Source of the DNA: Bacteroidota bacterium
GTDB taxonomy: Bacteria; Bacteroidota; Ignavibacteria; Kryptoniales; JAKASW01
Assembly (NCBI GenBank): GCA_021812985.1
Contig: JAKAMG010000030.1
Coordinates: 1 to 35,869, forward strand
DNA: 35,869 bases
Direction: 5' to 3'
This document shows positions 20,447 through 24,365 of this stretch, piece after piece; positions within the stretch are counted from its first letter, which is position 1, and every line of letters starts with the position of its first letter. The translations under genes were made by a program, and so were the position numbers. The notes below the pieces were generated by a model, which was given only the letters and a program-made list of their open reading frames with translations, did no database searches and was not told the DNA's origin.

Positions 20447-22018
20447 TTACCTCGGCTCCAGTGTCACAACAGGCAGAATCATTTCTTCAAGTGAAATGCC
20501 TCCGTGCTGGAAGCTGTCGTGGTACTGTTCAAGGTACTTGTGATATTCCGTGGGATACACGAAGTAGAAGTCTTCCTTGGCGATGATGTAGTTGATGGCG
20601 GGCCCGCGTCGCGGAAGCATGTAGTCTTCGGGGTTCTTCACGAAGATCGCCTGCCTGTCGTCGCATTTGAGATTCCGCCCGAACTTGTAGCGCAGGTTAG
20701 TCGAAGCTTCTCTGTCGCCCAGCACCTTTGAGCCGCGCATGCTCCTCACGCTGCCGTGGTCCGTCGTCACGATTACCGTCGCGTCAGTTTCAGCGAGCGC
20801 CTTGAAAAGGTCGAGGAGATACGAATGCTGGAACCACGACTTAGTCAGCGACCTGTAAGCGCTCTCATCAGGGGCAATCTCCTTGAGTATGTCCGAGTCC
20901 GATCGCGAGTGGGCCAGTATGTCGACGAAATTCACGACGATCGCAGTGAGCGGCAGCTTGGCAAAGCTCGATATGTTCGACACGACGTTCTTTCCAAAAT
21001 CAGGGTCGATGATCTTTATATACTTCGGGTCGACCCTGAGCCTCTTGCGAGTCAGTAGCTCCGTGAGAAGTTCTTTCTCGTTGCGGTTGCGGCTGGAATC
21101 GTCGTCCGAGTTCCCCTTGTCCCACAGCTCGGGATACCTCTTCTCCATGTCCAGCGGGAGGAGCCCGCTGAAGATGGCGTTTCTCGAGTAAGGGGTGGCC
21201 GTTGGAAGTATCGAATAGTAATAGTCCTTGCTGATCGCGAACATATCGCGCAGGAACTCTTCCATTATGAGCCACTGATCAAGCCGCATGCAGTCTATAA
21301 CCAGCATGACGACTGACTTCCCCGGTACCATCTTGGGCATCACGTATGTCTCAAATATCTCGTGCGAGAGTTTGGGACGATCTGATTTTGTCTTGACCCA
21401 ATCCTTATAGACGCCGTCAATATACTTGCCGAATGCCGCGTTCGCCGCCCGACGCTGATCCATTAGCGGCTCCTTAAGGCCCGTCTCGGGATGTTCGTCT
21501 ATCTCCAGCTCCCAGTATGTCAGCTTCTGGTGAATGTCGACCCAGTCTTCATGCCCGAGGTCGCTGTCTATCTTGTTGGAAATCTCGCGGAACTCTGAGA
21601 CGTAATCCCTTGAAACCCTCTCTCCTTCGATCCTGTGCCCGTCTATAATCTTCTTCGCGGTCATAAGTATCTGACTCGGATTCACGGGCTTCGTCAGGTA
21701 ATCGCTTATCTTCTGGCCGATGGCCTCTTCCATAAGCGACTCCGCTTCGTTCTTCGTGATCATCACGACCGGAATTTCCGGAGCTATACCTTTAATTACC
21801 TCGAGAGTGCTCAACCCGCCCATTCCGGCCATCATCTCATCAAGGAGAATCAGATCATAGTTCTCCCCCTTGAAGTTCTGTCTGACTAGTTCGATTGCGT
21901 CCTGCCCGTTTGTGGCAGTGTCTACCTGGAATCCTTTATCTTGAAGGAAGATCACATGAGGCTTGAGAAGTTCAATCTCATCATCAACCCATAGGATCCT
22001 TCGCTTATCCCCGTACAT
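20447..22018 (-). CDS. porX: PorX-type response regulator with PglZ domain
   Basis: 523 aa. An N-terminal receiver domain (Asp12/Asp13, phospho-acceptor Asp60 in LILLDEMM, Thr88, Lys110) is joined by a helical bundle to a PglZ alkaline-phosphatase-superfamily domain: VMLVIDCMRLDQW (Asp242), PTATPYSRN (Thr273/Thr275, matching the catalytic Thr of PorX), TTDHGSVRS and GDREASTNLRYKFGRNL. In Porphyromonas and Flavobacterium PorX acts with PorY in controlling the type IX secretion system and can hydrolyse oligonucleotides. No other T9SS gene is in the window. AGAGGAG lies upstream of the ATG. A weak minus-strand promoter-like pair (TTGATA with AATATC) may lie around 22039-22066. Confidence 0.9.
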   Translation of the reverse strand: MYGDKRRILWVDDEIELLKPHVIFLQDKGFQVDTATNGQDAIELVRQNFKGENYDLILLDEMMAGMGGLSTLEVIKGIAPEIPVVMITKNEAESLMEEAIGQKISDYLTKPVNPSQILMTAKKIIDGHRIEGERVSRDYVSEFREISNKIDSDLGHEDWVDIHQKLTYWELEIDEHPETGLKEPLMDQRRAANAAFGKYIDGVYKDWVKTKSDRPKLSHEIFETYVMPKMVPGKSVVMLVIDCMRLDQWLIMEEFLRDMFAISKDYYYSILPTATPYSRNAIFSGLLPLDMEKRYPELWDKGNSDDDSSRNRNEKELLTELLTRKRLRVDPKYIKIIDPDFGKNVVSNISSFAKLPLTAIVVNFVDILAHSRSDSDILKEIAPDESAYRSLTKSWFQHSYLLDLFKALAETDATVIVTTDHGSVRSMRGSKVLGDREASTNLRYKFGRNLKCDDRQAIFVKNPEDYMLPRRGPAINYIIAKEDFYFVYPTEYHKYLEQYHDSFQHGGISLEEMILPVVTLEPR

Positions 22019-22232: not shown

Positions 22233-22261
22233 TTGACATCCAAGCACCGATTCCTTATACT
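22233..22261 (+). promoter_or_regulatory. near-consensus sigma-70-type promoter of the BCAA operon
   Basis: TTGACA (22233-22238), a 17-base spacer and TATACT (22256-22261) match the housekeeping consensus at 11 of 12 positions. Predicted transcription starts near 22268, only about six bases before the leader-peptide ATG. An AT-rich run (AAAAATTCT, 22213 on) lies upstream of the -35 box like a partial UP element. Confidence 0.85.
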
Positions 22262-22273
22262 AAAAAAGAGGAA

Positions 22274-22441
22274 ATGAGCGACAGCGGTTCAACATATGAG
22301 TCTAGACTGACAGCGGAAGCAATTTCGCTGTCTCCAGGCGTTATTGTCGACTCAACTCTTCTTGGCCTCCTTTCCATTATTTCTATTCTTATTCTCCTCC
22401 TCCTTAGCGAGGGGAATCTCCTACTCGGCATTATCAGCTAA
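22274..22441 (+). CDS. Leu/Ile-rich leader peptide of the BCAA operon (putative)
   Basis: 55 codons, ATG to TAA. Residues 1-28 are mixed and polar. Residues 29-55 contain 12 Leu and 6 Ile (for example LLGLLSIISILILLLL at 29-44, then NLLLGII at 48-54), exactly the amino acids made by the genes that follow. GAGG lies two bases before the ATG, close to the predicted transcript start. The reading frame ends 190 bases before ilvB, and its 3' end takes part in alternative RNA pairings. In enteric ilv and leu operons such peptides sense charged tRNA supply by ribosome stalling. The hydrophobic run could alternatively be a genuine single-helix membrane protein, but position and RNA context favour a leader. 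Confidence 0.75.
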   Translation: MSDSGSTYESRLTAEAISLSPGVIVDSTLLGLLSIISILILLLLSEGNLLLGIIS

Positions 22442-22511
22442 ATAGCCGAAGGTTATTCCCCGATACCGCGAACCTAAAAAGAAATCCAGACGACATCGAC
22501 GGGAATAACCT
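22411..22511 (+). promoter_or_regulatory. mutually exclusive RNA pairings (candidate attenuator)
   Basis: Segment 1 (GGGGAAT, 22411-22417, inside the leader frame) can pair with segment 2 (ATTCCCC, 22455-22461), reinforced by TCGGC/GCCGA (22425-22429 with 22445-22449). Segment 2 can instead pair with segment 3 as a perfect 11-bp helix (AGGTTATTCCC 22450-22460 with GGGAATAACCT 22501-22511), extended by CGAT/ATCG (22461-22464 with 22495-22498) after a two-base bulge. Further hairpins follow (GTATG/CATAC 22523-22538; GTCCA/TGGAC 22567-22583). None carries a U-tract, so the termination or translation step controlled is not evident. Confidence 0.6.
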
Positions 22512-22631
22512 GAAGCCGGGTGGTATGTAAAGGCATACTGAGGCCAAAGCAACTAGTTGTGACATGGTCCAAGATTTCTGGACGACAGGATGCGGACCAC
22601 GCCCAATTTCAAACAAACACGGAGAAACAGC

Positions 22632-24365
22632 ATGAGCACCAATGAAATGACAGGCGCTGAAATATTTGTCAAGAGCCTGATGGAAGAAAATGTAGACTAT
22701 ATATTCGGTTACCCCGGCGGGGCGGTAATCGGGGTGTACGACGCGTTGCACGACATGTCGCACATCAAACACATACTGACGAGACACGAGCAGGGAGCCG
22801 TTCACGCGGCGGAAGGCTACTCGAAAGCGACGGGGAAGGTCGGCGTAGTCCTCGTGACCTCCGGCCCCGGCGCCACAAATACAGTCACCGGCATCGCCGA
22901 TGCGCACATGGATTCCGTACCGTTGGTCGTCTTCACCGGACAGGTTGCAACCCACCTCATCGGGAACGACGCGTTCCAGGAGGCCGATATAATCGGCATA
23001 ACCCGCTCCATAACAAAGCACAATTTCCTGGTCAAGGATGTCAAGCAGCTGGCGTGGACGATTAAGGCTGCGTTCCATATCGCCTCAACAGGCCGCCCAG
23101 GCCCCGTAGTCGTGGATATGCCGAAAGATGTCATGGCTTCAACGACGCCGTTCATGTACCCGAAAGAGGTAAAACTGCGCGGTTACCACCCGTTCTATTT
23201 CGGCCACATGGGTCAGATAAACAAAGCGGTAGAGATAATAAACGCCTCACGTAAGCCCGTTCTGTATGTCGGCGGCGGCGTCATAAACTCTAACGCTTCC
23301 AAGGAGTTGTTTAACCTGGCGAAGAAACTCAACGCGCCGGTCGCCATGACTCTCATGGGACTCGGAGCCTACCCGGCCGGAGACGAGTTGTCCATGGGAA
23401 TGCTTGGGATGCACGGGACATGGTATTCAAATGTCGCGGTGGACCAGTGCGACTGCCTCATAGCGATCGGATCCAGGTTTGACGATCGCGTCACGGGCAA
23501 TCCTGCCATGTTTTCTCCGAACTCCAAGAAAATACATATAGACATTGATCCGTCGGCCATAAGCAAGAACGTAAAGGTTGATGTACCCATAGTCGGCGAC
23601 GTGCGTCACGTTTTAGAAAGATTGATTCCGCTGGTCAATCCGCTCGACACAAAGGATTGGCTCGCTCAGATAGAAGAATGGAGGGGCGAACATCCTCTCA
23701 GATATGAGAACGGCGAAGAAATACGCGCCCAGTACGTGATTGAGAAAATATACGAGATCACGAAGGGCGAAGCTGTCATAACGACAGACGTCGGCCAGAA
23801 CCAGATGTGGGCAGCGCAGTTCTACGGCTACAAAAATCCGCGCTCCAACATAACATCAGGCGGCCTGGGAACGATGGGCTTCTCATTCCCCGCGGCCATC
23901 GGTGCCGCGTTTGGAGTGGAGGACAGGCCGGTCTTCAGCATAAACGGAGACGGCGGGATACAGATGAATATACAGGAGATGGCTACCGCCGCCGGCAACA
24001 AGCTTCCGCTCAAGATTGTAATACTGAACAACGGCTACCTCGGCATGGTACGCCAGTGGCAGGACCTCTTCTACAAGAAGCGGTACAGCCATGTGACGCT
24101 CGGAAATAACCCCGACTTCGTCAAGCTGGCCGAATCGTTCGGAGCGACGGGCTTCGTCACTGACAAGACGGACATGGTAGTCCCGATCCTGAAAGAGGCG
24201 ATGAAGATAAAGGACCGCCCGGTATTGATGGACTTCAGAACTATTCGGGAGGACAACGTCTACCCGATGATTCCTGGTGGAGGGACCGTTGCACAGATGC
24301 TGGATTATCCAAAATCAGTAAAGGAGCTCAAATTGTCAAAGGCGCATTCGGAGGGGGCGAAGTGA
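22632..24365 (+). CDS. ilvB: acetolactate synthase large (catalytic) subunit
   Basis: 577 aa ThDP enzyme making acetolactate (valine/leucine) and acetohydroxybutyrate (isoleucine). YPGGAVIGVYDAL and RHEQGAVHAAEGYSKATG carry the catalytic Glu; SGPGATNTVTGIADAHMDSVP and the FAD-type middle domain follow; the ThDP motif is GDGGIQMNIQEMATA … NNGYLGMVRQWQ. I chose the ATG at 22632 (GGAG seven bases upstream); an in-frame start 42 bases earlier adds a non-family leader. Its TGA overlaps the GTG start of ilvN, coupling the two subunits. It is the first enzyme gene after the putative attenuation leader. Confidence 0.97.
   Translation: MSTNEMTGAEIFVKSLMEENVDYIFGYPGGAVIGVYDALHDMSHIKHILTRHEQGAVHAAEGYSKATGKVGVVLVTSGPGATNTVTGIADAHMDSVPLVVFTGQVATHLIGNDAFQEADIIGITRSITKHNFLVKDVKQLAWTIKAAFHIASTGRPGPVVVDMPKDVMASTTPFMYPKEVKLRGYHPFYFGHMGQINKAVEIINASRKPVLYVGGGVINSNASKELFNLAKKLNAPVAMTLMGLGAYPAGDELSMGMLGMHGTWYSNVAVDQCDCLIAIGSRFDDRVTGNPAMFSPNSKKIHIDIDPSAISKNVKVDVPIVGDVRHVLERLIPLVNPLDTKDWLAQIEEWRGEHPLRYENGEEIRAQYVIEKIYEITKGEAVITTDVGQNQMWAAQFYGYKNPRSNITSGGLGTMGFSFPAAIGAAFGVEDRPVFSINGDGGIQMNIQEMATAAGNKLPLKIVILNNGYLGMVRQWQDLFYKKRYSHVTLGNNPDFVKLAESFGATGFVTDKTDMVVPILKEAMKIKDRPVLMDFRTIREDNVYPMIPGGGTVAQMLDYPKSVKELKLSKAHSEGAK

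Follow-up and report, generated by a model that had tools for sequence, protein, structure and literature searches.

Does the short Leu- and Ile-rich open reading frame (ORF) that lies between a promoter and the branched-chain amino acid (BCAA) gene ilvB in this Bacteroidota genome sense the products of the genes behind it, and if so, by what output? The frame (positions 22274 to 22441, + strand, of the 35,869-nt stretch of DNA analyzed here, referred to as the window) consists of 55 codons from an ATG start to a TAA stop and encodes MSDSGSTYESRLTAEAISLSPGVIVDSTLLGLLSIISILILLLLSEGNLLLGIIS. Translation confirmed the original prediction of an uninterrupted frame with 18 Leu or Ile residues in 27 codons, its densest stretch. 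The runner-up among the 289 ORFs of 30 to 100 amino acids compared across the whole window reached 11, and the maximum per ORF in third-order Markov replicas of the window was 14 (n = 60; no ORF with 18 or more). The leader frame is real and far above chance. Its predicted placement behind a strong promoter was likewise borne out by a sigma-70-like TTGACA-N17-TATACT element (22233 to 22261, + strand; 11 of 12 matches), both boxes of which are kept in 11 genus members. In the window, 12 nt separate the −10 box from the leader ATG (22262 to 22274), and across all genus members the spacing is about 12 to 15 nt; therefore, the mRNA is probably nearly leaderless, and the ORF is probably translated from it without a properly spaced Shine-Dalgarno (SD) site. 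A PorX-type T9SS response regulator gene (20447 to 22018, − strand) diverges from the leader promoter.

Downstream of the leader lie eight genes, ilvB, ilvN, ilvC, cimA, leuA, leuC, leuD, and leuB, the first of which (22632 to 24365, + strand) opens the ilvBNC-cimA-leuACDB operon. The nine-gene BCAA operon proposed originally was thus verified for eight genes; the ninth was not confirmed, the two ORFs after leuB being Gate-domain (nucleoside recognition) proteins. The further proposal that the sensed amino acids match the operon's products agrees with an ORF whose codon runs specify what the operon makes. Two genes of the ilvD family lie outside the operon (G000:C14:10726-12348 and G000:C2:169971-171587), and neither is preceded by a comparable Leu/Ile leader.

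Every genus genome for which an ilvB was detected (11 of 11) has both the promoter and the leader frame; the genus includes a MAG labelled Candidatus Kryptoniota (L025). As anticipated, the frame in these relatives stays rich in Leu and Ile while its N-terminal half varies: across the 11 leaders, this part differs in sequence and carries indels, and only a few residues, the last of them T-Y, are kept. Conservation is strong over the last 28 codons and nearly complete over the last 16, more than a plain run of codons would call for in this second half. A hydrophobic, conserved C-terminal half and a partly conserved N terminus could also belong to a real small membrane protein; however, we did not find the pattern of such a protein, in which amino acids are conserved and synonymous sites vary freely. 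Where leaders share an amino acid within the last 20 codons, the codon was identical at a frequency of 0.83, versus 0.44 in ilvB, in which no 20-codon window exceeded 0.55. Dominance of synonymous changes, the outcome that the original prediction had named as speaking against it, was thus not seen. Since synonymous sites are held more tightly in the leader than in ilvB, the constraint lies on the RNA and not on a membrane protein, and this rigidity points to RNA structure. In addition, the middle part varies freely with indels, the peptide has no Pfam match, and other families keep only Leu/Ile/Val richness and the pairing positions, which makes a membrane protein very improbable.

Codon choice within the leader is also restricted. 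Over their final 28 codons, the 11 leaders together encode Leu by CTC or CTT at 103 of 117 positions, compared to 63% in window genes (where CTG accounts for 23% of Leu codons), and ATA accounts for only 3 of 69 Ile codons, compared to 40% in genes, the remainder being ATT or ATC. By standard decoding rules, we take the leader's Leu and Ile codons to be read by one Leu and one Ile isoacceptor. The bias toward ATT and CTY may be due in part to RNA structure.

The leader region folds better than shuffled sequences (z = −4.35), and its segments can form three mutually exclusive helices, 1:2, 2:3, and 3:4, with control codons in segment 1. Segment 1 (AUUCUCCUCCUCC; 22391 to 22403, + strand) contains Ile-Leu-Leu-Leu codons and pairs in the minimum free energy (MFE) fold with GAGGGGAAU of segment 2 (GAGGGGAAUCUCCUACUCGGC; 22409 to 22429, + strand), which has segment 3 as its other partner. 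Segment 3 (GCCGAAGGUUAUUCCCC; 22445 to 22461, + strand) loops out the stop codon when it pairs with segment 2 and contains GGUUAUUCCC (22451 to 22460), the partner of segment 4 (GGGAAUAACC; 22501 to 22510, + strand). The 3:4 loop spans about 40 nt and is A/C-rich and G-poor. When the ORF was recoded synonymously, the native 2:3 energy was reached in only 0 to 4 of 500 trials and that of the 1:2 hairpin in 1 to 15 of 500. Among 14 dissimilar leaders of the class, native pairing was stronger than cross-pairing between leaders for both 3:4 (−24.1 versus −14.7 kcal/mol; permutation P = 2 × 10−4) and 2:3 (−17.2 versus −13.2 kcal/mol; permutation P = 2 × 10−4); the pairings have therefore covaried, with 2:3 strong in about half of these leaders and weak in the rest. 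Inside family f4, the alignment shows nearly invariant helices with few compensatory changes, and for this reason the weight rests on the cross-family pairing test. A further candidate helix, 4:5 (ACCUGAAG with GAGGUC), appeared conserved in the genus by eye, but its native pairing did not surpass cross-pairing (P = 0.53) and it was dropped. Structure of this strength might equally come from a ligand-binding riboswitch or a known RNA motif (T-box or ilvB-OMG) that happens to contain an ORF. This is scarcely credible, since the conserved bases are those of the helices and control codons; no Rfam covariance model, T-box or other, matched the window region at E values up to 10, and the only Rfam matches in relatives were SAM riboswitches away from the leader.

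We modelled the choice between these helices by masking 27 nt around a ribosome, folding the remainder at equilibrium, and averaging the result across all 11 leaders of the genus. Without a ribosome, or when one sat at the stop codon, 1:2 plus 3:4 prevailed (8.6 expected pairs each in the latter state). With the A-site at −17 to −14 from the stop, 2:3 rose from 0.7 to 3.6 to 4.7 expected pairs, and 3:4 fell from 8.3 to 2.8 to 4.2. The shift spanned A-site positions −19 to −13 and was strongest at −17 to −14, which is the Ile/Leu run; one codon beyond the range, 3:4 was back. These positions define a control-codon window at codons 37 to 43 (S I L I L L L; 22382 to 22402, + strand), on the basis of the 11-leader mean and of L007. 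The same stall effect, favoring 2:3 over 3:4, was not seen at equilibrium in the window's own leader (L002), where 3:4 stayed at 0.96 to 1.0 at every ribosome position; a switch there would therefore need cotranscriptional folding, in which 2:3 would form before segment 4 is made.

Taken together, these data argue for a ribosome-mediated attenuator with charged tRNA-Leu and tRNA-Ile as its signals, a reading to which we assign a probability of roughly 0.8. Translation of the peptide very probably reports the supply of Leu and Ile by choosing between two RNA folds. When both amino acids are plentiful, the ribosome would reach the stop codon, 1:2 and 3:4 would form, and expression of the operon would drop. 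Under a shortage of Leu or Ile, the ribosome would instead stall on codons 37 to 43 and cover segment 1; 2:3 would then form and block 3:4, and ilvBNC-cimA-leuACDB would be expressed. Comparison among relatives gives the sensor part good support, and leader-peptide attenuation, as originally predicted, is upheld for sensing by competing helices with control codons in segment 1; the account of the output is extended here.

For the output, the 190-nt untranslated leader between the leader stop and ilvB (22442 to 22631, + strand) is informative. A terminator scan of the window found no intrinsic terminator or U-tract after 3:4; the output step is therefore unproven. An intrinsic terminator of unusual shape could have escaped the scan, and some relatives do have U-runs 8 to 15 nt after the 3:4 stem, the outer stems of L117 and L028 (AAUAC/GUAUU) run into U-tracts, and T-runs follow the leaders of Chlorobiaceae. 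The window and most genus members, however, lack such features (L007 alone among the genus leaders has a U7 run, which is not adjacent to a stem), and we regard this explanation as improbable. Because 3:4 lacks a U-tract and access to the ilvB ribosome binding site (RBS) hardly changes between modelled states, we tentatively favor, at somewhat less than an even chance, factor-dependent (Rho-type) transcription termination or pausing within the untranslated leader as the likeliest output in the window genus. The overall C/G ratio in this region is 0.8 to 1.0. Besides a complete rho gene (G000:C53:44368-45660), the genome carries another gene (G000:C51:58741-59790) that resembles rho more weakly, at 418 bits, which is under the curated cut-off.

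Leaders of this kind extend well beyond the genus. Fifty genomes of the class have ilvB, and the 32 that lie outside the window's order were examined. In 27 of these 32 ilvB loci, ilvD or ilvB is immediately preceded by a BCAA-rich leader with the same layout (26 Ile/Leu/Val-rich leaders plus that of L105, on the same contig as L028, at a lower threshold); it is missing from L122, L134, L135, L136, and the short contig L126. Of the 20 ilvD loci in family f4, 18 have a leader, and Chlorobiaceae have Val-rich leaders before ilvD. Seven order-mates of the window (f2) lack a leader before ilvB. Leader-peptide sensing thus appears, from these sequence comparisons, to be a common control of BCAA synthesis in the whole class. 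SAM riboswitches occur close to the genomic neighborhood of ilvD leaders in two relatives (L131:57-175, − strand; L111:2526-2648, + strand). Short leaders resembling E. coli ilvL precede ilvD in other members of the phylum (L191, L193, and L203; e.g., MLSTVISLVIIRVIGISYRSGKAIC), and loci labelled Desulfobacterales or Deltaproteobacteria (L072, L098, L102, and L104) have short leaders upstream of BCAA genes (e.g., MKNLPAINNLIGLILLLVGEIILCCGDRG).

The relatives also bear on whether the same sensor might instead control ilvB translation through folds that mask or free its SD sequence. ErmC-type attenuators work in this way: stalling of a ribosome within the ORF makes the SD sequence of the following gene accessible. 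In the models, a ribosome stalled in the leader made the SD sequence at least 3 kcal/mol easier to open than did no ribosome or one at the stop, both in every one of the 6 leaders of sister family f17 and in 8 of the 18 leaders of f4 (in L146, at a single stall position only). SD opening in f4 cost 5.8 with segment 3 free and 11.7 with segment 3 sequestered, and the pairing of the mid-leader with the RBS was specific (P = 5 × 10−5). The predicted masker is segment 4 in f4 and the 3:4 loop in f17, and the codons at which stalling opens the SD sequence are mostly Leu, Ile, or Val in several f17 and f4 leaders. Family f10 showed no or negligible SD masking. These models predict an ErmC-like translational switch in f17 and part of f4, with the SD sequence closed unless a ribosome stalls; 3:4 would be the ON state there, the reverse of the window genus. 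In the window genus itself, however, ilvB SD accessibility was nearly equal in all modelled states (opening cost, 4.8 versus 4.4 between states and 6.25 to 5.3 along the ORF) and no conserved anti-SD sequence was found. Masking of the ErmC type was accordingly rejected for that genus, and a translational output in place of the transcriptional one is unlikely. It is possible, although we consider it somewhat doubtful, that an ancestral 2:3/3:4 sensor has acquired different outputs, namely transcription-level attenuation free of a U-tract in the window genus and ErmC-like SD masking in f17 and f4, with opposite meanings of 3:4.

Among known systems, the attenuators of E. coli ilvGMEDA and leuABCD (ilvL and leuL) combine a BCAA-rich ORF, control codons in segment 1, and competing helices. 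The locus described here shares the type of ORF, the segment 1 control codons, the 1:2/2:3/3:4 helices, and the genes controlled, and the modelled stall behavior (11-leader mean) matches E. coli-type geometry. In contrast to these attenuators, segment 2 lies inside the ORF, the stop codon sits in the 2:3 loop, the start is near leaderless, and 3:4 has a 40-nt A/C-rich loop. A defining feature of the E. coli type, a 3:4 intrinsic terminator with a U-tract, was not found, and we therefore do not file the locus as a plain member of that type. The leader peptides of Actinobacteria ilvB (BCAA-rich upstream ORF [uORF], alternative folds, poly-U terminators; PMC1262725) and the Corynebacterium ilvB-II uORF (BCAA-rich, alternative RNA folds, terminator; PMC10272879, PMC11857589) share the uORF and the alternative folds but have terminators, and no Rfam relation was detected. 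The ilvB-OMG and ilvB motifs likewise comprise BCAA-rich uORFs before ilvB (PMC10272879), with no Rfam match here. The Staphylococcus aureus ilvD leader is similar in its Leu/Ile-rich peptide before an ilv-leu operon but belongs to a Firmicute, with a terminator 52 nt after the peptide stop and additional action of CodY (PMC5794164). The f17 and f4 relatives resemble ErmC in their predicted SD freeing but would sense amino acid supply, not a drug.

A 2010 account described leader-peptide systems as known from Proteobacteria and Actinobacteria alone and itself added Firmicutes (PMC2965389). Strong clues for leader-peptide attenuation before amino acid operons have been reported in Flavobacterium psychrophilum (PMC9723704), and clues to such systems in Bacteroidota receive short mentions (PMC9723704, PMC7366714). 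The expectation that such control would be notable in a Bacteroidota/Chlorobi-like genome holds for this lineage, where it is hardly described; given the Flavobacterium clues, its presence in the phylum at large is not entirely without precedent. We found no paper that describes leaders of this sort from Chlorobi, Ignavibacteria, or Kryptoniota in those portions of the literature available to us; Lopatovskaya et al. 2010 (cited in PMC4833913) may list some. The Chlorobiaceae with leaders include cultured species, so leader control of BCAA synthesis can be tested. If the prediction for the sister families is true, translational attenuation by amino acid supply would be a form of control rarely or never demonstrated for a biosynthetic operon. 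The missing terminator, together with SD masking in the sister families, would show one sensor reused with different outputs.
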